Shown one piece after another: positions 46,680-59,583 of a DNA stretch of 64,000 nt. Source of the DNA: an uncultured Cryomorphaceae bacterium. GTDB lineage: Bacteria > Bacteroidota > Bacteroidia > Flavobacteriales > Schleiferiaceae. Where the stretch lies: contig CAKZJV010000007.1 of assembly GCA_937120475.1 (NCBI GenBank), forward strand, positions 62,001 to 126,000, read 5' to 3'. Position 1 is the first letter of the stretch. The number at the start of each line of letters is the position of its first letter. Made by a program: the position numbers and the translations under genes. The notes below the pieces were generated by a model, which made no database searches, was not told the DNA's origin, and saw nothing but the letters and a program-made list of their open reading frames with translations.

Positions 46680-49571
46680 ATGCTCTCCTTTAAAAAGAAA
46701 AATAAAGAAGAAACAAATTTATTTATTGCTCAGATTATTGAGGAATACGGATACTATCTATCAGTTCCTCCAACCGATCCAAAATCACCTCATTTAATTG
46801 GTTCTAAATATAATGGAGGTCCGGTTGTAGGTCTGATTTATAATGAACACTCGGTAAAGGATTCTGCAAGTTGGAATGGTATTGCAAAAAGAATACATGA
46901 TTTAACATATGAATATATAGATGAATGCCTGATTGTAGTTTTAACCTCCAATCGTATTTCCAGAGATTTTAAATCTTTTATTAACAACGCTATTGAGGAG
47001 TATATATCGTCTGGTCTTGAGAAAAAACGGTTTGAAAAAAGGGCAAAGATTAGATTTTTTAGCCTCTTGGATCTATGGAAAGTAGTTCGGAATTCTCCTA
47101 ATTGGATGGATGATGCCCAAAAAAATGGTTTTGTCATTGAGAGCAATGGCCTTGCTTCAAAAGAATTCCTCGCTGAGCCTTACACAAGCAGAAAGTACAA
47201 AATCAGAGAGAGTTTATTATCCTTAAAAAAAGAGTTGGAGAGGAAATATGACGATTATACTCGGTCCACTGAATTTTATTACCAAAAGGCTCGGGAAGTT
47301 TTTTTAAAATTACAGAATTATGATAAAAAAGATACTCCTTTTTATAAAGGAGAAGGACAGACAAAAGCTGTAAATGATCCTGAAAACGCATATTATTCTT
47401 TTGTTCAGTTAAAAGAGTATTGGGATAAATACTCCAAAGGCCAAAAGCTTTCTCCCTCGGCCTTTGCATTTTATTTGGAAGAGGAAGAAGATGAATATTC
47501 TTTGCACGATTTATTCATTCTAATTAACCGTTTCATTGCTTATATATATAACGATACATGGAATCAGGCTGAATTTAATGAGTACAAACCTCCAAGAGTA
47601 TTACTGAACAACTCTGTTGAGATTCTCCCTGAACACTCAATTGGCGGATTCCTGGACTATGCTGCCAACGGCTTTTATCTGGGGGAAAGAAGTAAGAGAC
47701 GCATGCATTATGCCATAGAGTATTTGCAAGATCCCCAAAACTTGTTCATTACTTTTCCAAAATACCATGAAGAAAGGATTAGCAAAATATTTCTGGGTGG
47801 TATTTATGAAGGGAAGGATTTTCATGAAAACCTCAAAAAGTTTTTTGATTCATTGAATTTCTCTATTAATTCAGAGGAAAATCGGACGGCTTTTTATACA
47901 AGGGTTCTTTACGATAGAAAAGTCAGAACTCTATGGGAAATGAGAACCATAGTTGAGGAGGAGGATGAAGATGTAGCTGGTGATGATTATGATGCGGAGC
48001 GTGAACGAGAAGAGTTGAATAATAGCCGTGAAAAAATACCCTTTCATCTCGATCAGGTGGTAAAAGAAGATAAACTGGGTCGAAAGCCCATTGCTAAAGC
48101 CTTTGCCCGCTTGATTAAAGAGGACATATTCACTAAGGAACTCTCCCACTCCTTTATGGTACACTTACAAGGGGAATGGGGTTCGGGGAAATCCTCCTTC
48201 ATGAATTTTATAGAAGAAGAACTGAACCAGGGAAAAACCCAATGGATAGTAATTAACTACAATGCCTGGCAAAACCAGCATATTGAACCGCCCTGGTGGA
48301 CTTTAATTGATCAGGTTTATCGCCAATCTAAGCAGAGTTTGAAAAGAGGCGATAGATTTATTTTTTGGATTCGAGAAAGATGGCGTAGGGCGATTTGGTA
48401 TAAGGGATGGCAAAAAGCAATGAGCCTGTTCTTAACCCTTTTACTTGTTCTTTTACTCATTCGTTTTGCTCAACCCATATTGACCTTCGCAACTTCAGGT
48501 GATCTGAGTCATAATGATACGGGTATCACACTTGAGGTTATAACGAAGTTGATCATTTCTTTGGCTTCAATGGTGGGAATAATATTCTCTTTTTCTCAAT
48601 TTATATCCGCTCCACTTTTTGTTAATACTTCCAGGCAGGCAGAATCTTTTGTCAAACGGGCTACCGACCCTATGACAAGAATCAAAGATCACTTTGGACG
48701 TTTGGTGAATAATATTGTATCTAAAGAAAAGCGGGAATTGCTCATTTTTATTGACGACATCGACCGTTGCAACCGGGAGTTTATCGTGGAGCTGCTAGAA
48801 GGCATTCAAACCCTGTTTAAAGAAAAACGGGTGCTTTACATTGTGGCGGGTGATAAGCAGTGGATCACCAAAAGTTTTGCCAATACCTATCAGGAATTTA
48901 GCGTAGAGAAGGAAGGAGGAAATGATCGCCTGGGTGAACTATTCCTGGAAAAAGCCTTTCAGCTCTCTTTCCGTATGCCTGAAGTGTCGGAATCTGCCAA
49001 ATGGGAATTCTGGAACCATATTATAGGGGAGAAAAAAGAAGAGCAGAAACAAAGCTTTCAGGAATTAAATGCAGAGAAACAGCAGGAGGTGAGACAAGTT
49101 ATTTCAACCAGCACCGAAGATATTGCCAGTTCTGAATTTATGAACCGTATGGAGCAGGATTTCAACCTGCGCAGTGATGATGTGTCTGACCTGGTGATTG
49201 AAGAAAAGATCAGCGATCAGGAGGAGTTAAAACATCTGCTCAATGATTTTCACTCCTATATCAATACCAACCCAAGAGCCATCATCCGCCTAGCCAATAA
49301 TTACAGCATGATCCGCTCCACGCTGATCGCGGAACGTAAAGATATTTCGACCCGCCATGTTTTCCGTTGGCTGGTTATTGAAGACCTGATCCCTAAAGTA
49401 AGAACGCAGATATACACCTTCGGTGAGTTCAAGGAACTGGAAGAGTTTATAGAAAAAAATGCAGCTAATGATACGGTAAGGAAAAATTGCATGAAGCTCT
49501 TGAAAGGAGGGGAAGAAGAATTTGATGGTGCGTTGACCTTGGAAGAAATCCATAAAATCATTGGCCGGTGA
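46680..49571 (+). CDS. KAP-family P-loop NTPase with transmembrane insert
   Basis: A 963-residue protein. An N-terminal region of about 450 residues, without recognised domain, precedes the KAP domain. Walker A GEWGSGKSS is at residues 498-506, two transmembrane helices interrupt the P-loop fold (about 580-602 and 620-642), and Walker B LLIFIDDIDR is at 687-696. This interrupted fold defines the KAP family, which includes plasmid and phage-exclusion proteins. Base composition is mosaic: 46681-46740 has 14 G/C of 60 whereas 48721-48780 has 27 of 60. It follows an hsdM remnant by 11 bases. Confidence 0.82.
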   Translation: MLSFKKKNKEETNLFIAQIIEEYGYYLSVPPTDPKSPHLIGSKYNGGPVVGLIYNEHSVKDSASWNGIAKRIHDLTYEYIDECLIVVLTSNRISRDFKSFINNAIEEYISSGLEKKRFEKRAKIRFFSLLDLWKVVRNSPNWMDDAQKNGFVIESNGLASKEFLAEPYTSRKYKIRESLLSLKKELERKYDDYTRSTEFYYQKAREVFLKLQNYDKKDTPFYKGEGQTKAVNDPENAYYSFVQLKEYWDKYSKGQKLSPSAFAFYLEEEEDEYSLHDLFILINRFIAYIYNDTWNQAEFNEYKPPRVLLNNSVEILPEHSIGGFLDYAANGFYLGERSKRRMHYAIEYLQDPQNLFITFPKYHEERISKIFLGGIYEGKDFHENLKKFFDSLNFSINSEENRTAFYTRVLYDRKVRTLWEMRTIVEEEDEDVAGDDYDAEREREELNNSREKIPFHLDQVVKEDKLGRKPIAKAFARLIKEDIFTKELSHSFMVHLQGEWGSGKSSFMNFIEEELNQGKTQWIVINYNAWQNQHIEPPWWTLIDQVYRQSKQSLKRGDRFIFWIRERWRRAIWYKGWQKAMSLFLTLLLVLLLIRFAQPILTFATSGDLSHNDTGITLEVITKLIISLASMVGIIFSFSQFISAPLFVNTSRQAESFVKRATDPMTRIKDHFGRLVNNIVSKEKRELLIFIDDIDRCNREFIVELLEGIQTLFKEKRVLYIVAGDKQWITKSFANTYQEFSVEKEGGNDRLGELFLEKAFQLSFRMPEVSESAKWEFWNHIIGEKKEEQKQSFQELNAEKQQEVRQVISTSTEDIASSEFMNRMEQDFNLRSDDVSDLVIEEKISDQEELKHLLNDFHSYINTNPRAIIRLANNYSMIRSTLIAERKDISTRHVFRWLVIEDLIPKVRTQIYTFGEFKELEEFIEKNAANDTVRKNCMKLLKGGEEEFDGALTLEEIHKIIGR

Positions 49572-49632
49572 CCCCCAAAAAACCAAAATTCTCATTTTTA
49601 TTGATACCAACGGGCTGCGGCAAACCAATGGG
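49568..49632 (+). repeat. diverged gene-fragment repeat, copy 1
   Basis: It starts in the stop region of the KAP gene (GTGACCCCC) and reads, in one frame, KTKILIFIDTNGLRQTNG. A second copy lies at 49904-49966. Between the copies many differences in the ILIxI segment fall at third codon positions, as expected for former coding DNA. Confidence 0.6.
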
Positions 49633-49686
49633 GTATACCTCGTCCGGTTGTCGGTAGGGAAGCCTCTCTATTAAAGATGGACAAAC

Positions 49687-49752
49687 TACTTCCGGTCTTG
49701 TTTTCGATACAATCCGCTTTGGGCGGATCACTCAAACTGACAACCGGAAGTA
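49687..49752. repeat. nested inverted repeat
   Basis: TACTTCCGGT (49687-49696) and ACCGGAAGTA (49743-49752) form ten-base arms. Inside lies a second hairpin ATCCGC-TTTGG-GCGGAT (49712-49728). The whole could fold into a long structured RNA or be the end of a mobile element. Confidence 0.5.
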
Positions 49753-49803
49753 AACAAATACCTTTTGAACCTGGACAGAGCTGGAAAACGGATTCGAAAA
49801 GTG

Positions 49804-49859
49804 CATGTCATCCCGAGTGCTCCGGGGCCAGCCCCGGAGTGTATCGAGGGGTGAACATG
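49804..49859. repeat. GC-rich hairpin within an intergenic repeat-like element
   Basis: CTCCGGGGC (49820-49828) and GCCCCGGAG (49831-49839) make a perfect nine-base stem. It is flanked by imperfect outer arms starting CATGTCATCCCGA and ending GAGGGGTGAACATG. The TCATCCCGAG/CGAGGGGTGA pattern resembles interspersed elements common in Bacteroidota genomes (recollection). Confidence 0.55.
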
Positions 49860-49903
49860 TTATGTCATGCCCATTTACCCTTCATCAAACGCTTCCGCTT
49901 TTC

Positions 49904-49966
49904 GTGACACCCCAAACCAAAATCCTCATCTATATCAATACCAACGGGCTGCAGCAAATCGAGGGC
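49904..49966 (+). repeat. diverged gene-fragment repeat, copy 2
   Basis: It starts GTGACACCCCAAACC and reads TKILIYINTNGLQQIEG, then runs on in an open frame of 36 codons ending TIPG and a stop. It pairs with copy 1 at 49568-49632. The rest of 49572-50091 holds no supportable gene; it is flanked on the right by the aldehyde dehydrogenase stop. Confidence 0.6.
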
Positions 49967-50091
49967 AGAACGACCTCCTGCATTGTGCGGATCATTCTTA
50001 CTATACCGGGATAATTAGCAAAATGCTTAAAATCAAAAAAGTTCAAGGAAGGCTACGAATACCCTTAAAAATTAAGTGTGGGGAAAGATAC

Positions 50092-51447
50092 CTATTTCAC
50101 ATAAACCGTTTTACGGTTCACAAATTCCAGGATACCGTCTTTGGAAAGCTCACGGCCATAGCCAGAGTTTTTGGTGCCGCCAAAGGGCAATCGTGGATCG
50201 GACTTTACCAGCTCATTTACAAAGTAGGCACCGTCCGGTACTTCACCGGCCATTTCAAGGGCTTTATCAATATTTGTAGTGCATACGGTAAGTCCTAAAC
50301 CAAAGGATGATTGCCGGGCCAGGGCAAAAGCCTCTTCTATATCACGGGCTTTGATCATAGCCGCCAGTGGACCAAAGGTTTCTTCGTCAAAAGCGGCCAT
50401 ACCGGGTTTTACATTACCAAGCACCGTAGGCTCGTGATAACAATTGTCTTGTTGTCCACCGTATAACAATTTTGCACCTTGTGAAAGGGATTCCTGTTGT
50501 TGTTTATGGAGCTTATCCGCCAGGTCTTTACGGGCCAACACGCCAATTTTTGTGTCTTCTTCTTCGGGATTTCCTGATTTTAGCTCTTTAACACCGTCAA
50601 TAAACTTCTCTACAAAAGCATCGTAAACGGAATCCACCAGGATAAAACGTTTGGCGGAAATACAGCTTTGTCCGCAGTTCATCATACGCGCGGTGAGAGC
50701 CGTTTTTACCGTTTCATCCAAATCGGCATCTTCCAGAACAATAAAAGCATTGCTACCGCCTAATTCCAGCAATGATTTCTTTAGGTATTTTCCAGCAAGA
50801 GCTGCCACGGCAGAGCCTGCGCCACCACTTCCCGTAAGAGAAACAGCCTTGATGGCATCGTGAGACAATATTTGTTCCGTAGTATCGTGATGTACGATCA
50901 GGCTTTGAAACACTCCTTCAGGGAAACCTGCTTTAGAAAATACGCCCTCTATCATTTCGGCACAGCCAAATACATTGGGTGCATGTTTTAATAAGGCGGT
51001 ATTGCCTGCCATCAAGGTAGGGGCCGCAAAACGGAAAACCTGCCAGAAGGGAAAGTTCCAGGGCATAATGGCAAACACCGCTCCGATAGGGTCATGGCGC
51101 ACAAAACTCTGCGAGGCTTCCGTTTTAATGTGTTCTGTTGCCAAAAAGCTCTCCGCGTTTTCGGCATAGTACTCACAGGCCCACGCACATTTTTTCACCT
51201 CGCCTTTGGCTTCGGTTATCGGTTTACCCATTTCACGCGTAATCATCAGGGCATACTCATCTACATTTTCACGAAGCACTTCAGCGGCCTTATTCATCAG
51301 TTTGGCCCGTTGGCTGAAAGGTTGTTTTTTCCAGCTTTCAAAAGCTTCCCCTGAGCCGTTCAGCTTTTGATTAAGGCTATCTTTAGTAAGGCCCTCGTAG
51401 GTGCCAATGGTTTCATTTGTATAGGGGTTTATACTTTGGAACTGCAT
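50092..51447 (-). CDS. NAD(P)-dependent succinate-semialdehyde dehydrogenase-like aldehyde dehydrogenase
   Basis: A 451-residue aldehyde dehydrogenase. Catalytic Glu228 lies in LLELGGSNAF and nucleophile Cys262 in NCGQSCISAKR; the nucleotide region is SLTGSGGAGSAV. It begins SINPYTNETIGTY as in the SSADH group. It would oxidise succinic semialdehyde to succinate, the last step after the GABA transaminase encoded 7 kb upstream in the same run. It is the last gene of the six-gene run. Confidence 0.88.
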   Translation of the reverse strand: MQFQSINPYTNETIGTYEGLTKDSLNQKLNGSGEAFESWKKQPFSQRAKLMNKAAEVLRENVDEYALMITREMGKPITEAKGEVKKCAWACEYYAENAESFLATEHIKTEASQSFVRHDPIGAVFAIMPWNFPFWQVFRFAAPTLMAGNTALLKHAPNVFGCAEMIEGVFSKAGFPEGVFQSLIVHHDTTEQILSHDAIKAVSLTGSGGAGSAVAALAGKYLKKSLLELGGSNAFIVLEDADLDETVKTALTARMMNCGQSCISAKRFILVDSVYDAFVEKFIDGVKELKSGNPEEEDTKIGVLARKDLADKLHKQQQESLSQGAKLLYGGQQDNCYHEPTVLGNVKPGMAAFDEETFGPLAAMIKARDIEEAFALARQSSFGLGLTVCTTNIDKALEMAGEVPDGAYFVNELVKSDPRLPFGGTKNSGYGRELSKDGILEFVNRKTVYVK

Positions 51448-51462
51448 ATCGGAAAAATGAAT

Positions 51463-52947
51463 TTATTTAGTAAGGCTACCTTGTAATTGCGGTTTTCTTT
51501 TGTCTTCAACCATTTCAGAGGAGTATTGTGCGCGGATAGCATTAATCCAATTCCTGGCGCGTTGTGTAAGGCGGAAATCATCCGTCATCATACGTCCGCG
51601 TGATACGAGGATGCCCATGTCGGCACCTTCATAGAGGTAATCGCCTTTTTTAGTGATACGCAGGAAGAAGGCTTCACTTTCGGTTTCCACTGCCCTGCGG
51701 TGGGTGTCCATCCGGTCGAATTGAATGTGGCCGGTGTCGTACATTTTCCAGATACCGGAGCGAGGAGCCTCGTGCACATACTCTATGGTATCCTCGGTAT
51801 GCTTAATGATCAGCTGACTCCAGCTATCCATGTTCTCCTGGCGTGCCCAGCGCTTGTTGAGTTCATTTACGCTCAGTTCGTAATCCACATTCATATATTC
51901 CAGGATGTGGAATATAAACAGGGGAGCATCAGCCAACGCAAAAACAGCGTGGTTGGTAATGGAGCTGGCACCGGTAATCCTTGGGTTCAACTCTCCTAAA
52001 TAAAGTTGCCCGTTATCCTGATCGATCAAAAAATCCAGTTCAAAATAGCCTTTATAACCGCTCTCCCGCAGCTGATCGCCAAACTGCTGGGTGTATTTTC
52101 TCGCTTTTTGGCGAAGACCAGCAGGGAAGGCGTTCGGGAAAATTTCATTGCCACACCATCCACCTTTGTAAGGAGTAAGCTCTTTAAAACCCACCAGTTC
52201 TGTCATCAGCGGAGCAACAATAGTTCCGTGACGGGTTACACAAGCCTCAATGGCCGTTCCGCGAGGATTGATACGTTTCATAATCTTAACCTCACTTTCC
52301 TGGGTGATTTCATCGGCATGTTTGTCAAACTCCTCTTCATTGGAGATGAAAAAAGTGGTATGTCCGGAATCCCCGAAAGGGGTTTGAATTACCAACTCCT
52401 CACCCAGGTGAGCCGAAACTTCGCGCAGTTGCTCATAATCCGTGACGGGTGAAAGTACGTAGGGAACGCAGGGCACACCGGCTTTTTCGGCAATACGGTT
52501 GGTATTTACCTTGTTATCCATGGAAGTACGCTTTTGGGCACTGGGGAACATAATCTTCAGCTTTTGTTCCTTGGCCAATTCCTCCGTTTTTTCATCAAAC
52601 ATCAGGAAAAGAGCTTTCCCGTTGCGTCCCCCCTTGGAACGGGTTTTCAGGTAGTCCTGAACTTCAGGGTGTTGAAGCAGGTAATTGTTAATATCTTCAA
52701 TACCTTCAAAATCATCGTGGGGTATCTCCTCCTTGGGTGAAAATACGTTGGGGTGCTGCCCGTCAAAACATTCTATATAGCAGATAAAGCGGAAACCTTT
52801 AATCCATTCATCAGCTCCCAACAGGTTGAAATTTGTGGCACTGATAAAGTAAATGGGTGTTTCGTTCTTGTAAAAAAACCGTCTGATATCGGCAATACCC
52901 TTGAGTTTTACGGGGTCCTTCTTTTTACTTTTTTTCTTCGTGTCCAT
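51463..52947 (-). CDS. ATP-grasp ligase (biotin-carboxylase-like), unknown substrate
   Basis: A 494-residue ATP-grasp enzyme. Features include VIQTPFGDSGHTTFFIS (ATP loop), GGWCGNEIFPNAF, and a metal-binding GELNPRITGASSITNHAVFA. Its N-terminus is Lys-rich (KKKSKKKDP), and the C-terminal 120 residues form an extra domain. It lies 15 bases upstream of the dehydrogenase gene and 6 bases after the decarboxylase-like gene. It probably ligates an amino acid or polyamine; a role in the operon's pathway is inferred. Confidence 0.78.
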   Translation of the reverse strand: MDTKKKSKKKDPVKLKGIADIRRFFYKNETPIYFISATNFNLLGADEWIKGFRFICYIECFDGQHPNVFSPKEEIPHDDFEGIEDINNYLLQHPEVQDYLKTRSKGGRNGKALFLMFDEKTEELAKEQKLKIMFPSAQKRTSMDNKVNTNRIAEKAGVPCVPYVLSPVTDYEQLREVSAHLGEELVIQTPFGDSGHTTFFISNEEEFDKHADEITQESEVKIMKRINPRGTAIEACVTRHGTIVAPLMTELVGFKELTPYKGGWCGNEIFPNAFPAGLRQKARKYTQQFGDQLRESGYKGYFELDFLIDQDNGQLYLGELNPRITGASSITNHAVFALADAPLFIFHILEYMNVDYELSVNELNKRWARQENMDSWSQLIIKHTEDTIEYVHEAPRSGIWKMYDTGHIQFDRMDTHRRAVETESEAFFLRITKKGDYLYEGADMGILVSRGRMMTDDFRLTQRARNWINAIRAQYSSEMVEDKRKPQLQGSLTK

Positions 52948-52953
52948 ATAGAT

Positions 52954-55707
52954 TTATTTAGTGGTGAGTTTATTTTGTTTGGCTGCAGCCAACGCATTGA
53001 GAGAAGTGGCAGTTTTTTTACGGTCCAAAACGCTTTGTTTAAAAACCCTCAAACCCAGGTCGCCACGGTAGCCATGAATTTCAGATACGTCCAAAGCCAG
53101 TAAAAACTGGATGATTTCCTGGCTCACCTCCTGCCCGGGCACCAAAACCGGAAAGCCGGGAGGATAGGGTATTATAAAGGAGGAGGCTACCAAGGTACGG
53201 CCATCGTTTATGGCCGGTAAGCAATCCTTCAAGGGGATATAATCAAAATTGTCTTCATCATAAGAGAGGAAATAAGCCTCTCTCAAATTGCCACCGGGAA
53301 CCCCGGGAACCGCCTGGAAAGACTCGTGAAAATGACTGAAATCGGGCAGGGGAGGCACCTGGTCGGTAAGGGATTGAATGCGAGCGTGTCGGATCTCTTT
53401 TTCTTTGGTATTCAAAGCTGCAAATTCTTCATCCAACTCATCTGATATTTTTAGAAGGGCGTTGATGAGATAGGCGATGCTACCGCGTGTAGTGCCGATG
53501 TTAGTCATAAATAGCACCGTGTTCCGGGAGGTCTTATTGATCTGGATATTGAATTTATCCATCAGGAATTTATTCTTGAAGGTATCACCATCCACTCCGG
53601 TGCGGCCGATGTGCAGGGTAATTTTGGTGGGATCCAATACAAACTCATCCTGCTCCCAGGCTTTTTCCATACGATTCCAACCCGTGGCTTTGCCGTAGTA
53701 CTCCGAAAGTCCGGATTGCCGGTATTCATCAGGAATAAAATCACGGATGGTCAATACATCGAAGTACTTGTTTAATTGTGGCGTATCGTTCACTTTGGCA
53801 CGTAGAAGCATCGCCAGCTCCACACTTTTTTCCACCAATTCAAAGCCTTCGAATTGTATTTGTCTGCGGCCAACATCTAAAGAAGCCAGCATTTGGTAAT
53901 TGGGAGAGGTGGAGGTGTGCGTCATGTACGCCTCCAGGAAGGTACTTTCGCTTTTGCGCCTGAAGTCCTCATCCCAAATATGAATCATAGATCCCTGCCT
54001 GAAACTGCTCAGCGTTTTATGGGTGCTCTGGGTAGAATATACGCGTATGCGTACCTTATCCGGATCAGGCATTTGTGGTGTTTCGCCTTCTTTGAGCTCC
54101 TTTAAGTGCTTGGTATAGGCAGCCCGGTACGATTTACTCCGGTACTTTTCGTGTAGCCTGCGTGCGGCAAACATGCCTGTGCGCTGCTTGTAGGTGTACG
54201 TAAATCCTGCAAAGGCAAACCAGGCCTCATCCCACAGGAAGATCATGTCCGGCTTAATAGCCAGAATTTCTTCCATCACCCTCTCCGTGTTGTACACCAG
54301 ACCATCAAAAGTACAGTTGGTGAGCAGTACCATCTTCACGTGATTCAGTCGTCCGGCTGCTTTAAGTTGTAATAGCTTTTGTTTGATGTGCTGCAAAGGC
54401 ACAGCTCCGTACATGGAGTACTTTTCGATAGGGTAGGAGTCCAGGTAAACGGGGTAAGCACCGGATAATACAATGCCGTAATGATGCGATTTGTGACAAT
54501 CATGGTCAATAAGAACCACATCTCCCGGTTGCACCAGGGCCTGCATTACTATTTTATTGGCAGTGGAGGTGCCATTGGTCACAAAATAAGTTTGCCGTGC
54601 ACCGTAGGCGGCACGTGCCTTTTCCTGGGCCTTCTTTAAAGGGCCGGATGGCTGTAGCAATGAATCAAGCCCACCGGTGGTTGCTGAAGTTTCGGCCAAA
54701 AACATATTGCGGCCGTAAAAATTTCCGAAATCCTGTATCCACCGCGATTTAAAAACGGAATTACCCCGTGAGATAGGCATAGCATGAAAGATACCCGTAG
54801 GTTTTTGGCTATAGTTCATTAAAGCCGAAAAGAAGGGCGTTTCATATCTCTCACGTATACCGCGCAGGATGGTCAGATGGATTTCCTGGAGGTCTTCTCG
54901 CCTGTAAAATATACGCCTGAAGGTTTTTATGGTACGCTCCTGCAATTCCGCCAGTGCCGTATCAGTTACATAATATACGTCCAGTTCAGGCCGCAGCTGA
55001 CGAATAAGATTGCCCAATATCGGTCCTAACTGAACCTCAGCCTTATTGGCATAATTCAGGCGTAAGGCATTTTGCATGTAGGGTTTGATGAGCGGAGTGG
55101 TATTCCTGGAGAGGTACGATGGAGAAGAGCGGATAACCACCGATTGTATATTGTAATTAAAGAGCAGTGCCAGCAATGCATCCTGAAAGGAAGGTTGAAC
55201 CACAACTCCATAAATGAATTGTTCGGTGGAATCCCTCAGTTCAGCGATTTTTCGCCTCAAATCCTTCTCCTCTTCTCGGGAAAGGTCTTCTACAAACAGT
55301 ACTTCAAAATAATTTTTGGGTGGCAGGTTAGAAGAGGGGGTAAATTCATTGTCTTCCAGCTTTTCATGTTCATCACTTTTAAGAAATTGCGGGTCACTAC
55401 GGTAGCTGTCACTCACTAATTCACGTGTGGTATCCGAAACATTACGGGCCAGGGCACTATACTCATGGTGCTTGAGGGAGTCTGTCAAGCTCTCTATGCG
55501 CCTTGGTCCGGGAAAAGCGAAAAACTTTTCCAGTCCTTTTAACTCTTTTAAAAGCTTAGTGGCTTCTTCACTTAATCTTTTTTCATTGGCTGAACCTCGG
55601 TGACATCTTGCTAATTCGGCAGAGGCATCTTTGAGCTTATTCCAATGCATTACCCGCAGCTGCCCCATATTATAGAAGGGAGCACTTTGTTGTTCTTTTT
55701 TACCCAT
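52954..55707 (-). CDS. Lys/Arg-decarboxylase-like PLP enzyme with N-terminal extension
   Basis: A 917-residue fold-type I PLP protein. An N-terminal region of about 330 residues (partly coiled-coil and receiver-like, as in inducible decarboxylases) precedes the catalytic domain. The domain begins at SATTGGLDSLLQPSGPLKKAQE, carries VTNGTSTANKIV, the DEAWFAF block and Schiff-base Lys564 in STQSTHKTLSSFRQG. This pattern is of ornithine/lysine/arginine decarboxylases. It would yield a polyamine or diamine feeding the GABA steps; substrate unproven. Confidence 0.8.
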   Translation of the reverse strand: MGKKEQQSAPFYNMGQLRVMHWNKLKDASAELARCHRGSANEKRLSEEATKLLKELKGLEKFFAFPGPRRIESLTDSLKHHEYSALARNVSDTTRELVSDSYRSDPQFLKSDEHEKLEDNEFTPSSNLPPKNYFEVLFVEDLSREEEKDLRRKIAELRDSTEQFIYGVVVQPSFQDALLALLFNYNIQSVVIRSSPSYLSRNTTPLIKPYMQNALRLNYANKAEVQLGPILGNLIRQLRPELDVYYVTDTALAELQERTIKTFRRIFYRREDLQEIHLTILRGIRERYETPFFSALMNYSQKPTGIFHAMPISRGNSVFKSRWIQDFGNFYGRNMFLAETSATTGGLDSLLQPSGPLKKAQEKARAAYGARQTYFVTNGTSTANKIVMQALVQPGDVVLIDHDCHKSHHYGIVLSGAYPVYLDSYPIEKYSMYGAVPLQHIKQKLLQLKAAGRLNHVKMVLLTNCTFDGLVYNTERVMEEILAIKPDMIFLWDEAWFAFAGFTYTYKQRTGMFAARRLHEKYRSKSYRAAYTKHLKELKEGETPQMPDPDKVRIRVYSTQSTHKTLSSFRQGSMIHIWDEDFRRKSESTFLEAYMTHTSTSPNYQMLASLDVGRRQIQFEGFELVEKSVELAMLLRAKVNDTPQLNKYFDVLTIRDFIPDEYRQSGLSEYYGKATGWNRMEKAWEQDEFVLDPTKITLHIGRTGVDGDTFKNKFLMDKFNIQINKTSRNTVLFMTNIGTTRGSIAYLINALLKISDELDEEFAALNTKEKEIRHARIQSLTDQVPPLPDFSHFHESFQAVPGVPGGNLREAYFLSYDEDNFDYIPLKDCLPAINDGRTLVASSFIIPYPPGFPVLVPGQEVSQEIIQFLLALDVSEIHGYRGDLGLRVFKQSVLDRKKTATSLNALAAAKQNKLTTK

Positions 55708-55710
55708 GTT

Positions 55711-56112
55711 TTATTTGGTTGAATGTAATGCCAGTTTGTTTCCTTCAGAGTCAACAAACAGCGCAAAATGGCCTGCATCGTGAATGATTTCAGTTTTAGG
55801 CAGAATGATTCGTCCTCCCATTTCAGTTACCCGTGGTAACATGGTGCTGATATCTTCCGAAGCATTCAGGTAAAGTAAAGATCCGGATTCGGTGGGTATG
55901 CAGCCCTGGCCTTTCACCAGAGCACCGCCAACCTTAGAATCTCCCGGGAATAAAGCCATGGCATAATCACCTTGCTCCACCACCTGCATTTCCATTCCAT
56001 AAAGATGATTGTAAAAAGCAACGGCTCTTTCAAGGTCCACTACGGGAATCTCGAACCAATTAACAAAGTGTTTCGGAGTTTTTGGTTTTCGTTTTGAAGT
56101 AAGATTTCCCAT
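55711..56112 (-). CDS. VOC (glyoxalase/dioxygenase-fold) family protein
   Basis: A 133-residue VOC-fold protein with two beta-alpha-beta3 units. The first has NWFEIPVVDLERAVAFYNHLYGMEM; the second has IILPKTEIIHDAGHFALFVDSEGNKLALHS. Metal ligands of the fold (His/Glu) are only partly evident. It lies 3 bases from the decarboxylase-like gene in the operon and may detoxify or modify an intermediate. Confidence 0.8.
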   Translation of the reverse strand: MGNLTSKRKPKTPKHFVNWFEIPVVDLERAVAFYNHLYGMEMQVVEQGDYAMALFPGDSKVGGALVKGQGCIPTESGSLLYLNASEDISTMLPRVTEMGGRIILPKTEIIHDAGHFALFVDSEGNKLALHSTK

Positions 56113-56139
56113 ATATGTAGTGATTTTAAAGTTAAGTTC

Positions 56140-57066
56140 TTATTCTTCCAAACCCATAGGCATTTGAAATTGTGATCCCATTTCCTTGGCTTCCATTTGC
56201 TTTAATTCAGCTAATTGCTCCACTTTTTGTGGTTTGATCAATGGCCCCAGAGATTCCAGGTAAGAATGTTTATCTTTTTTGTAGATGCTAAAGTCTCCAA
56301 GATGATCCCGGAAACTCTTCAAGGGCTGCCCTAACCTCATAACACCCAGTTCGCGGCTACGCTTAACCCTTTCCAGGTCAATTTCAATGGGAAAGATTTC
56401 TTCCGTGCTTCCGGCCTGATAAAGTACGCGACCATCCGGGCCACATACCATAGATCGGCCAATACCTCCTGAATCCAATCCGTTCACATCAAAAAAGTAG
56501 CACTGGTTCACAGCGGCCATGGTCTGGTCAATCGAATGTTCGATATCACGGTCCATGGTACCGGTCATGGTAGGGTGGAGGATCACCTCCGCGCCCATTA
56601 CGGCCAGGGTTCTGGTAGTTTCAGGAAACCACATATCGTAACAAATGGATAGCCCGAAACGACCTACGTTGGGAATGTCGAAAATGCAAAAATCACTTCC
56701 GGGAGTAACCCCCACTTCGTAGGGATAAAATGGAAACATCTTTCTATAACGGGTTACCACTTCGCCCTCGGGGTTAATGACAATGGAAGTATTATAAATC
56801 TTATCGTCCACCTTTTCGAAAACAGAGCCAGGTACCAACCATACCTTATGCTTTTTAGCCATGGCCTGCATTTCCCTTTCAAAGCTATTAGGAAGAGGCT
56901 CTGCATAATAGGTGAGGGGGCCATGATAACATAATTCACTGAACATGACCAGATCTACGGCTGGATATACGTTCATAGTAATATCCAATTTAAGTTTCAT
57001 CATTTCCAGGTTGGAATGGGTAGCAGAAACTTTCATCTGGATACCGGCTATGGTAAATGCTTTCAT
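56140..57066 (-). CDS. nitrilase-superfamily carbon-nitrogen hydrolase
   Basis: A 308-residue amidase-type enzyme. The nitrilase triad is Glu44 (FSELCYHG), Lys109 (RYRKMFPFY) and Cys142 (SICYDMWFPE), with the helper segment HPTMTGT. It has no ligase or synthetase domain. It overlaps gabT by one base (TAATG). A hydrolytic step on an amide, such as an N-carbamoyl or gamma-glutamyl intermediate, is inferred from the context. Confidence 0.85.
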   Translation of the reverse strand: MKAFTIAGIQMKVSATHSNLEMMKLKLDITMNVYPAVDLVMFSELCYHGPLTYYAEPLPNSFEREMQAMAKKHKVWLVPGSVFEKVDDKIYNTSIVINPEGEVVTRYRKMFPFYPYEVGVTPGSDFCIFDIPNVGRFGLSICYDMWFPETTRTLAVMGAEVILHPTMTGTMDRDIEHSIDQTMAAVNQCYFFDVNGLDSGGIGRSMVCGPDGRVLYQAGSTEEIFPIEIDLERVKRSRELGVMRLGQPLKSFRDHLGDFSIYKKDKHSYLESLGPLIKPQKVEQLAELKQMEAKEMGSQFQMPMGLEE

Positions 57067-58382
57067 TATAGAGTTTTAGTGTATTTTTTAATTTGATTAG
57101 ATAGGATATCAAGACCTTTGTTCAGTTCTTCATCAGTAATTACAAGGGGCGATAAGATACGGATTACATTTTTATGCATACCGGCACTGATGAGAACCAG
57201 CCCCTCCTCTGCACAACCTTTTACAATTTTGGTACACAGCTCACCGTCCGGCTGGCGGTGGTCTCCGTTTTTAATAAACTCGATCCCTATCATGGCTCCC
57301 AGTCCACGAACATCTCCTATAGCGGCATTTTCAGCTTTCAGTTTTCCCATCCGGTCAAAAATGATACGGCCGATGTGTTTGGCGCGGCTGTTCAGGTCCT
57401 GATCTTTCATTAGTTTAATGGTAGCCAGGGCAGCTGCACAACTGATGGGGCTTCCTATGTAAGTACCACCAATACTTCCCGGTGAAGCGGCATCCATAAG
57501 TTCGGCACGGCCTACAACAGCGGCTATTGGTAAGCCCGACCCCATAGATTTGGCGTAGGTGCTGAGGTCTGGCTGTACTCCGTATTCCTGCCAACTAGCC
57601 CAGTTACCCGTGCGGCAAAATCCGCTTTGTACTTCATCCATTATTAAAAGTACATTGTGCTTATCGCAGAATTTCCGCAGGCCTTCAAGGTATTTTTTGG
57701 GAACGGGGTTAAAGCCACCCTCTCCCTGTATGGGCTCCAGAATGATAGCCGCCAGGTTGTCGGGAGCGACCCTGTTATTAGTACTTTCCTCTAATTGGCG
57801 CAGCTGCTCTTCTACAAATTCATCTTCAGAAAGGCCCTGGCCCAAATGGTAGTAATTGGGGAAAGGAATGCGGTAAACCTCCGGGGCAAAGGGCCCGCAA
57901 CCTACCTTATAGGAAATTTTACTGGTAAGGGTCATAGCCATCATGGTACGGCCATGGTAGGCATCGGTAAAACATAAAATACCTTGCTTACCAGTTGCCT
58001 GCCGTGCAATTTTAACCGCATTTTCCACCGCCTCGGCTCCGGTGCTGATCAACATCACTTTGGTGTGATCTCCGTGCGGCAATATCTCCGCAATTTTCTC
58101 GCATAATTCTACGTAAGGTTCATAGGAAACCACGTTAAAACTGGTGTGAAGGTACTTTTCGGCTTGTTGTTTAATAGCCTCTACCACGGTGGGGGGGCAG
58201 TGGCCGGCATTGACCACACCAATGCCACCGGCAAAATCAATAAGTTCACGACCGTCTTCATCGGTAATAATAGCTCCACGGGCATGGCTTACTGTAGCAG
58301 TATTGAATACGCCTACACCGTTGGCTACTACATTTCGTCTGCGTTCCATCAGGTTTTCAGACTTGGATAAATTGGAAATCAT
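57066..58382 (-). CDS. gabT: 4-aminobutyrate aminotransferase-type class-III transaminase
   Basis: A 438-residue PLP enzyme of the GABA/ornithine/acetylornithine group. The characteristic motifs are STGAEAVENAVKIARQATGK, EPIQGEGGFNPVP, DEVQSGFCRTGNW and the Schiff-base Lys278 in YAKSMGSGLPIAAV. It moves the amino group of GABA to 2-oxoglutarate and leaves succinic semialdehyde. First gene of the six-gene minus-strand operon; the upstream gap to the tRNA terminator is 199 bases. Confidence 0.87.
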   Translation of the reverse strand: MISNLSKSENLMERRRNVVANGVGVFNTATVSHARGAIITDEDGRELIDFAGGIGVVNAGHCPPTVVEAIKQQAEKYLHTSFNVVSYEPYVELCEKIAEILPHGDHTKVMLISTGAEAVENAVKIARQATGKQGILCFTDAYHGRTMMAMTLTSKISYKVGCGPFAPEVYRIPFPNYYHLGQGLSEDEFVEEQLRQLEESTNNRVAPDNLAAIILEPIQGEGGFNPVPKKYLEGLRKFCDKHNVLLIMDEVQSGFCRTGNWASWQEYGVQPDLSTYAKSMGSGLPIAAVVGRAELMDAASPGSIGGTYIGSPISCAAALATIKLMKDQDLNSRAKHIGRIIFDRMGKLKAENAAIGDVRGLGAMIGIEFIKNGDHRQPDGELCTKIVKGCAEEGLVLISAGMHKNVIRILSPLVITDEELNKGLDILSNQIKKYTKTL

Positions 58383-58581
58383 ATTTTAAGTTTTAGTAAA
58401 GCTCAGGTTCACTTTCAGAACAATAGTATAAAGGTTGCTTCGGGAAATAAGTTAAGCTATATTAATCAAATTATTGAGACAAAGAGCCTGGGACTAAAAG
58501 ATCATTACCAGCCATCGAAGGTGTTTGCTGAACATGGATATTCAGGTAATGGTGCGGCCTTGTCTCCTAAAGGAATAGACA

Positions 58582-58611
58582 AAAAAGCCCGTTTGAAAAA
58601 ACGGGCTTTTT
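58582..58611 (-). terminator. bidirectional intrinsic terminator behind tRNA-Phe
   Basis: AAAAAGCCCGTTT (58582-58594) and AAACGGGCTTTTT (58599-58611) form a 13-base perfect stem around GAAA, with A/T runs on both sides. On the minus strand it immediately follows tRNA-Phe. The gap to the gabT start at 58382 (about 200 bases) shows no other feature I can support. Confidence 0.9.
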
Positions 58612-58617
58612 AAGAGG

Positions 58618-58690
58618 TGGTGCCAGCTGGAATCGAACCAGCGACACAAGGATTTTCAGTCCTTTGCTCTACCAACTGAGCTATGGCACC
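58618..58690 (-). tRNA. tRNA-Phe (GAA)
   Basis: A 73-base cloverleaf read on the minus strand: GGTGCCA acceptor arm, AGCTCAGTTGGTAGAGC D-arm, GGACTGAAAATCC anticodon arm with GAA, and GCTGGTTCGATTCCAGC T-arm. The 3' CCA is not fully encoded. A strong terminator follows. A TACATTTG at 58782-58789 on the same strand may be its -7 element, without a good -33 partner. Confidence 0.95.
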
Positions 58691-58804
58691 TCTACAGTTT
58701 TAAGGTTTAAAGTTAAGAGGTTTAACGTTCCAGCCTTAAGACTTATAACCACAAACGCTTACTTATCCTGTTTGCGGGGCGCAAATGTAAAGATTTTTTC
58801 AAAT

Positions 58805-58838
58805 TTGAAAAGAAATTTTTCATCCGTCTTTACATTTG
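58805..58838 (+). promoter_or_regulatory. Bacteroidota-type promoter for coaX
   Basis: TTG at 58805-58807, a 23-base spacer (long but within the reported range) and TACATTTG at 58831-58838, an exact TAnnTTTG. The coaX ATG lies 22 bases after it. Confidence 0.45.
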
Positions 58839-58860
58839 TCACCGATCTATTTCAAAATCC

Positions 58861-59583
58861 ATGAATCTGGCAATCGACATTGGCAACAGTAGGGTAAAAG
58901 TTGCTCTTTTCAAGCAAGGGCAATTGGTGGCAAAGACTATCCTGGAAAGTTTCAGCCCGGCCCAGGTGGAAAAGTTCTGGAGCGATTATGGAAACCCCGA
59001 ACGGGCCATAGTTTCGAACGTTGGCGAAGAGACCAAGCTGCCCGTACGTTGGAATTTTCCTAGTTTGATTTTGGATTCGCAAACCGCACTTCCCTTTCAG
59101 AGTGAATATAAAACGCCACAAACCATCGGGAAAGACCGCCTGGCCCTTGCCGCTGCGGCCAGGTTTCAGTATCCCGCCCAGGATTGCCTGGTAATAGATG
59201 CCGGTACCTGCATTACCTATGATTTTGTAAATCGCTCTGGAAATTACCTGGGCGGTGGAATTAGTCCGGGTTTAAAAATGCGTTTGCAATCGTTACCCCA
59301 TTTTACCTCGCGCTTACCTTTGGTAGAGGCAAAACCCCACTTTGAGCTTATCGGCCAAAGTACCGAGAACTCCATATTAAGCGGTACCGTTGGCGGTATA
59401 ATCCGTGAGGTTGAAGGCACAATAGCCGAATATAAAAGCCGTTATCCTCAACTGGTAAGCATTGTCACCGGGGGAGATATGCTTTGGTTTGATGACTTAC
59501 TAAAAAATAGCATCTTTGCAGCGCCCGATTTTTTAATGATGGGCTTGAACTATATTCTGGATTATAATGCAGAAAGGCTTTAA
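58861..59583 (+). CDS. coaX: type III pantothenate kinase
   Basis: A 240-residue ASKHA-fold kinase for the first step of coenzyme A synthesis. Phosphate motif IDIGNSRVKVALF (residues 4-16), catalytic segment CLVIDAGTCITYDFV, and GGGISPGLKMRL. No type I or II kinase features. Its end overlaps the next gene by 17 bases. Confidence 0.93.
   Translation: MNLAIDIGNSRVKVALFKQGQLVAKTILESFSPAQVEKFWSDYGNPERAIVSNVGEETKLPVRWNFPSLILDSQTALPFQSEYKTPQTIGKDRLALAAAARFQYPAQDCLVIDAGTCITYDFVNRSGNYLGGGISPGLKMRLQSLPHFTSRLPLVEAKPHFELIGQSTENSILSGTVGGIIREVEGTIAEYKSRYPQLVSIVTGGDMLWFDDLLKNSIFAAPDFLMMGLNYILDYNAERL

Follow-up and report, generated by a model that had tools for sequence, protein, structure and literature searches.

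A conserved operon of Bacteroidota and neighbouring phyla with a possible role in GABA conjugation

The GABA shunt handles 4-aminobutyrate (GABA) through glutamate decarboxylase (GAD), the transaminase GabT and a succinate-semialdehyde dehydrogenase (SSADH or GabD), while the Puu (gamma-glutamylputrescine) pathway includes a glutamine-synthetase-type ligase, the PuuD hydrolase and an oxidase. Carnosine synthase is an ATP-grasp enzyme, and in the insect Black-Ebony-Tan cycle the nonribosomal peptide synthetase-like Ebony joins an omega-amino acid to an amine and Tan is a C45-type hydrolase. Here we describe a six-gene operon at positions 50,092 to 58,382, minus strand, of a 64,000-nucleotide stretch of DNA (the window) from an uncultured Cryomorphaceae bacterium (assembly GCA_937120475.1, contig CAKZJV010000007.1, positions 62,001 to 126,000). 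It encodes a class III aminotransferase (GABT), a nitrilase-superfamily amidase (NIT), a small glyoxalase-fold protein (VOC), a large OKR-fold decarboxylase (DC), an ATP-grasp protein (GRASP) and an aldehyde dehydrogenase (ALDH) referred to here as SSADH. We read it, tentatively, as an operon centred on the conjugation of GABA.

Conservation and gene order of the operon

The six open reading frames (ORFs) lie on one strand with gaps of -1, 27, 3, 6 and 15 bases in the direction GABT to SSADH, as the first-pass annotation of this DNA had described and the ORF list confirmed, and they are flanked by plus-strand ORFs at either end. Relatives were taken from a scan of named genomes; the best 80 of at least 455, together with three further genomes, gave 83 mapped loci, and counts over 68 loci omit the 15 with too little upstream sequence. 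A single order, GABT-NIT-VOC-DC-GRASP-(C45)-SSADH, was kept in 68 of 68 loci for whichever genes were present, which answers the check on order conservation that had been proposed earlier. All seven genes occurred in 26 of the loci, exactly the six of the window in eight, and GABT-NIT-DC-GRASP in that order in 62. DC and GRASP were present in every locus (68 each), followed by GABT and NIT (62 each), VOC (54), an ALDH (50, of which 39 were at least 50% identical) and C45 (49).

The distance between DC and GRASP was at most 700 bases in 62 of the 68 loci, and in the remaining six the space was taken up by a permease gene in L062, L068 and, judging from an equal gap, L089, by two larger ORFs in L069 and L073, and by unresolved sequence in L080. 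The permease of L068 and that of the plasmid locus L091, both of the amino acid type, were just 25% identical over 459 amino acids (aa) and therefore name no substrate. Trees of DC and GRASP agreed (r 0.914 over 77 loci, a value reached by none of 999 permutations), which fits co-inheritance, and shared descent alone could give the same agreement. The six genes form a conserved operon, beyond what would be expected by chance.

Record titles of the best 80 of at least 455 relatives included Flavobacteriales, Cytophagales, Saprospiraceae, Ignavibacteria, Calditrichaeota and Gemmatimonadaceae bins. A sample of 296 genomes from the phylum yielded the GRASP family PRK06524 in four, one of them the genome of the window. 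Many of the named carriers among L010-L057 (Gillisia, Psychroflexus, Salegentibacter, Polaribacter, Gelidibacter) presumably come from cold or saline places, with sampling bias possible. A 233-aa protein with no Pfam match occurs in three loci; in L040 (10461-11162) it takes the place of C45, after GRASP and ahead of SSADH.

Proteobacterial versions were located on plasmids, as NIT-DC-GRASP-C45 in Roseobacter, Pseudorhodobacter and Cupriavidus and as DC-GRASP-C45 with an ABC transporter and an amidase in Rhizobium and Sinorhizobium. In Shinella, Roseateles XES5 and Sinorhizobium RAC02 (L091, L092 and L105), which represent one lineage with shared operon genes 90-98% identical, NIT, GRASP and C45 were found with a 2-ketoarginine decarboxylase, an agmatinase, an ALDH, a D-amino acid dehydrogenase and a racemase-arginase fusion in place of DC. 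The predicted functions of this set fit an arginine-to-GABA route, and since it replaces DC, GABA would be the intermediate common to both versions. The orthologous NIT of the Shinella lineage is 55% identical to that of the window.

Other features of the plasmid loci included the fusion itself, annotated as 'alanine racemase' in L091 (12770-14557) and composed of ornithine-racemase-like and arginase-family domains. The DC-GRASP-C45 genes of Rhizobium leguminosarum Vaf10 (L104, 1-10425) adjoin nifHDKE, and in both L104 and L094 the annotated DC is shortened, with a small ORF after it. On S. meliloti pSymA, a 35-residue piece that separates DC from GRASP (L093, 8765-8869) is 71% identical to the Shinella NIT and is perhaps a NIT remnant.

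Predicted functions of the encoded proteins

GABT (57,066-58,382, 438 aa) scored above the cut-off of the GABA transaminase family TIGR00700 (511.1 against 506.65 bits) and matched PF00202 (2e-126) and the 4-aminobutyrate aminotransferase structure 1sf2 (1.6e-118), with the pyridoxal phosphate (PLP) lysine Lys278 in 57 of 57 aligned homologues. SSADH (50,092-51,447, 451 aa), a YneI/Sad-type ALDH, matched PF00171 (6.5e-130) and the succinate-semialdehyde dehydrogenase structure 4it9 (1e-127), and its catalytic Glu228 and Cys262 were found in 59 of 59 homologues. Its scores were below the NCBIfam SSADH cut-offs (PRK09406, 510.7 against 730; PRK13968, 475.4 against 855; TIGR01780, 323.3 against 646.35), while in L066 the ALDH slot is occupied by a different, GabD-type protein that is above the SSADH cut-off (723.6 against 646.35). 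The GABA-to-succinate end of the pathway, as predicted from these matches, is well supported at the family level. The first-pass annotation had outlined an amine-to-GABA-to-succinate route, of which this end held, through the TIGR00700 score and the L066 SSADH, and the amine start found no support; the catalytic residues it had named in GABT, SSADH, DC (Lys564) and NIT (Glu44-Lys109-Cys142) were all in place and conserved in aligned homologues.

DC (52,954-55,707, 917 aa) matched the OKR_DC_1 major domain PF01276 (7.7e-77, 259 bits), and the PLP-binding Lys564 was conserved in 84 of 84 homologues in an alignment restricted to copies longer than 800 residues. Its best solved relative, over DC residues 13-905, was the 'Probable amino acid decarboxylase' 9n0n (3.2e-241). 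The companion entry 9N0O is given for Mycobacterium tuberculosis Rv2531c in a passage of PMC12910592 that describes the activity of this protein as unknown. The Glu in 'VEKTG' of AdiA (6q6i) and LdcI (9e0m) aligns with Asn724 of DC, and Rv2531c also has Asn; Asn724 was found in 84 of 84 homologues and Arg728 in 83. We take the role of this Glu, LdcI Glu526, to be binding of the substrate's distal amine. A passage of PMC5607190 names it as probably involved in substrate binding, on the basis of docking and of a proposal made earlier. DC lacks the Glu that the Lys and Arg decarboxylases aligned with it, LdcI and AdiA, have at this site.

A sister clade of DC (six members, support 1.0) provided a second line of evidence, as an aspT antiporter gene adjoins DC in six of the six sister loci examined. 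Three of these carry an aspartate 4-decarboxylase gene and two of the three an HdeA-family gene (L106 and L108), with Asp-Al_Ex and HdeA of L106 confirmed by Pfam. One sister DC is divergent from Lrp, SSADH and class III aminotransferase genes, and the same Asn and Arg were present in the three sister DCs that were aligned (L099, L100 and L102). The rhizobial plasmids L106, L107 and L108, with an OKR-fold decarboxylase, one or more AspT antiporters and an aspartate 4-decarboxylase, may hold an acid-resistance island.

Compared with known decarboxylase-antiporter pairs, the pairing of the sister DCs with aspartate-type antiporters makes an acidic substrate for DC likely, with moderate support, and glutamate to GABA would be the simplest choice because GABT and SSADH act after it. 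The Asn, constant in the alignment, and the antiporters of the sister loci also tell against the Lys/Arg decarboxylase feeding an amine into the route that the first-pass annotation had proposed. GAD (TIGR01788) was over its cut-off in none of the four operon-bearing genomes, and the best match in the window's own genome, outside the operon, reached 63.5 against 380.4 bits.

GRASP (51,463-52,947, 494 aa) is annotated as 'biotin carboxylase' PRK06524 and was above the cut-off of that family (NF005096, 799.5 against 684 bits). Its AlphaFold2 model (predicted local distance difference test score 81.9) has a biotin-carboxylase-like fold over approximately 380 residues, and in fold comparison PylC, biotin carboxylase and PurK were tied at Z 23-24. 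These searches placed GRASP within a broad PylC/biotin carboxylase/PurK group and picked out no substrate. Lys146, Glu303, Glu319 and Asn321 were present in 81 of 81 sequences, as expected of an ATP-grasp fold (Z about 22-24), and from the alignment we assign them probable ATP and metal roles. At the biotin carboxylase catalytic site RIQVE aligns with RITGA of GRASP, so that the Glu after the N-x-R motif, which we take to be Glu296 of the Escherichia coli enzyme, is replaced by Ala327 (Ala in 78 of 81 sequences, Val in three). The best match to a solved biotin carboxylase had 29.8 bits. A biotin carboxylase function was rejected on the replaced Glu, which makes an amide-forming ligase the more likely prediction for GRASP.

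NIT (56,140-57,066, 308 aa; Glu44, Lys109, Glu117, Cys142) matched PF00795 (CN_hydrolase; 6e-32, 111 bits), with the catalytic Glu and Lys in 60 of 60 homologues and the Cys in 59, the other having a gap. It reached no NCBIfam equivalog cut-off, the best being AguB (TIGR03381, N-carbamoylputrescine amidase; 84.3 against 410.25), and scored weakly against formamidase (80.6 bits) and aliphatic amidase (74.9 bits). VOC (55,711-56,112, 133 aa) matched PF00903 (1.1e-6); an alignment of 22 sequences contained no invariant His, and Trp19-Phe20-Glu21 was invariant.

C45, found in many relatives, is an Ntn-hydrolase (PF03417/NF040521). It was rejected as a general component, being without a match in the window genome and not present in all genomes of C45-less loci. 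Of the genomes of 14 such loci seven had a C45 match at E 1e-10, six of them over the cut-off, and four of the matches were in frames of 556-574 aa that may be other paralogues.

The distribution of the genes suggests that the operon has two halves. NIT and GABT were both present in 62 of the 68 loci and both absent from the other six. One of these, L076, is DC-GRASP-C45, and its genome (G301) has GABT-NIT as a separate adjacent pair away from DC-GRASP. The genomes of five VOC-DC-GRASP loci (5/5) had no genome-wide match to NIT (1e-20) or GABT (1e-100), thresholds at which weaker aminotransferases would not show. As VOC-DC-GRASP occurs without NIT-GABT, and the latter two go together, we read the former as a 'make' half and the latter as a 'break' half.

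The proposed pathway and its alternatives

In the pathway we tentatively favour, GABA would arise by the action of DC on an acidic amino acid, glutamate being the likeliest, and GRASP would use ATP to form an amide bond between GABA, or a similar compound like beta-alanine, and a second molecule, much as carnosine synthase and Ebony do. NIT, with C45 in many relatives, would cut the amide and free GABA, which GABT would convert to succinic semialdehyde and SSADH to succinate, these last two steps having family-level evidence; VOC is perhaps an accessory of the 'make' half. The ligated intermediate later cut by the nitrilase, as the first-pass annotation had suggested, is compatible with the data as a whole, and the conjugation step itself is one that we infer. 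Overall, the earlier interpretation was partly supported.

Several observations weigh against this pathway. The substrates proposed for DC, GRASP, NIT and C45 are predictions, and an operon that makes and hydrolyses the same conjugate looks futile unless timing or place differs. Rv2531c has the same Asn and an Ile at Arg728, which makes an acid-binding role of the Asn724-Arg728 region a weak reading, and the sister loci with antiporters are a small set, some of them closely related to one another. PF00282 decarboxylases were present in all four operon-bearing genomes, with one match elsewhere in the window's own genome, and DC need therefore not be the sole source of GABA. At the other end of the pathway, 18 of the 68 loci had no ALDH in reach and 11 had one that was only about 24-32% identical; of four such low-identity ALDHs tested, three (L060, L069 and L078) missed the SSADH cut-off that L066 passed. 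The window genome lacks C45. NIT was found without GABT nearby in the plasmid loci L091, L092, L105 and L096, and in L097 with a class III aminotransferase of only 35% identity on the opposite strand, while completeness is not stated for the five genomes without NIT and GABT.

A wider claim, possible and held with less conviction, is that of an undescribed pathway in Bacteroidota, neighbouring phyla and Proteobacteria, symbiotic plasmids included, that would combine an OKR-fold glutamate decarboxylase, a new GABA-conjugating ATP-grasp family and dedicated NIT/C45 hydrolases, with the Rv2531c family sharing the altered decarboxylase. The literature covered, which left most subscription papers outside, contained no description of the operon or of a PRK06524 function among the matches listed.

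It is conceivable, if rather unlikely, that ligation comes first, with GRASP making a gamma-glutamyl amide, DC converting it to a GABA amide, NIT and C45 releasing GABA and GABT and SSADH finishing the route. The butirosin enzymes BtrJ and BtrK follow such a ligate-then-decarboxylate logic. The constant presence of both DC and GRASP, their short spacing and the agreement of their trees would all suit this order of events, and an amidase travelling with GABT would be explained without a futile cycle. It is opposed by the sister DCs L099, L100 and L102, of the group with aspT beside DC, which share the Asn and Arg, and the 32 plasmids on which GRASP was matched include none of the six sister DC records. 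Moreover, GRASP of L091, L092 and L105 accompanies a DC-free route to free GABA.

The same lineage is the best argument for the earlier idea of arginine as a starting point, in which DC would make agmatine, cadaverine or putrescine, ligation would protect the amine, GABT and SSADH would act on the conjugate and NIT would deprotect it to give GABA and then succinate, as in the Puu pathway with other enzymes. DC does belong to the Orn/Lys/Arg decarboxylase family, and amines of this type can be substrates of class III aminotransferases and ALDHs. Arginine genes lie beside GRASP-C45 in the three plasmid loci of this one lineage, and the solitary DC of L098 is no more than 9 kb from genes for argP, arginase and ornithine cyclodeaminase. 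This polyamine route lost ground through Asn724 and the antiporters of the sister loci; it was kept as a rival on account of the arginine genes, and we consider it doubtful. GABT, moreover, is above a GABA-specific cut-off, a ureohydrolase is not among the six genes (four PF00491 matches occur elsewhere in the genome), and no dedicated agmatine, putrescine or cadaverine enzyme was found among the six proteins, though GABT and the ALDH may be promiscuous. According to a section heading in PMC4569260, growth on arginine does not critically depend on adi (Rv2531c).

A DC without the acidic residue would also suit a neutral side chain, as in a route where DC makes 4-aminobutyramide from glutamine, NIT deamidates it to GABA, GABT and SSADH finish and GRASP acts separately. 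None of the 68 loci has NIT without GABT or the reverse, NIT is weakly like formamidase and aliphatic amidase, and these two enzymes release ammonia. This glutamine route is improbable, as GRASP, which accompanies DC more constantly than any other gene, would have no part in it, and no such pathway was found in the literature among the matches listed. That GRASP is a genuine biotin-dependent carboxylase subunit, as the PRK06524 name and the fold tie might indicate, is scarcely credible given the Ala or Val in place of the catalytic Glu, the low score against solved biotin carboxylases and six genes that include no carboxyltransferase or biotin carrier.

Genomic setting and comparison with known systems

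Directly upstream of the operon, on the minus strand (58,582-58,690), are a tRNA-Phe (gaa) gene at 58,616-58,690 and a terminator-like stem at 58,611-58,582. An Rfam scan of 49,500-59,000 identified the tRNA only, and a promoter scan gave 14 matches against 15.9 expected and thus no excess. tRNA genes are common sites of horizontally acquired genes; the GRASP family is patchy in the phylum, and the operon of the window sits directly downstream of this tRNA. Beyond the SSADH end, a 963-aa plus-strand ORF (46,680-49,571) is located in a stretch of lower guanine plus cytosine (G+C) content, which was 0.359 at 47-48 kb against 0.415-0.517 in the remaining 1-kb blocks of 44-64 kb.

The operon places two protein families in a concrete, testable context, the ATP-grasp family whose name 'biotin carboxylase' is misleading and a decarboxylase family of unknown activity that includes Rv2531c, and a single residue, Asn for Glu in DC, makes a sharp prediction of substrate. 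It also suggests that in some bacteria GABA may be stored, protected or transported in amide form.

Among individual proteins, Rv2531c (9n0n/9n0o/9n0p) is a full-length homologue of DC, and PylC, the ATP-grasp ligase of L-lysine and D-ornithine, headed the VIA-align list with a Z of 23.8, level with biotin carboxylase and PurK; its identity to GRASP is 9-10%, and the fold does not give substrates. The sister DCs beside an antiporter, with an HdeA-family gene near in two closely related loci, recall the GadB-GadC-HdeAB acid resistance system of E. coli, a likeness of the sister group alone, as the operon of the window is without an antiporter. With the Puu pathway the operon shares the logic of ATP-dependent conjugation, ALDH, amide hydrolysis and GABA transaminase, but its ligase is of the ATP-grasp type, its hydrolases are a nitrilase and, in relatives, C45, and it has no oxidase; neither a glutamine-synthetase-type ligase nor a PuuD-type hydrolase was found among the six proteins. 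Carnosine and homocarnosine synthesis and the Black-Ebony-Tan cycle, likened here by description only, also combine an acidic amino acid decarboxylase, an omega-amino acid ligase and a C45-type hydrolase. The GABA shunt ends with enzymes of the same two families and probably runs through the same intermediates, but where it uses GAD the operon of the window has an OKR-fold decarboxylase together with a built-in ligase and amidases.

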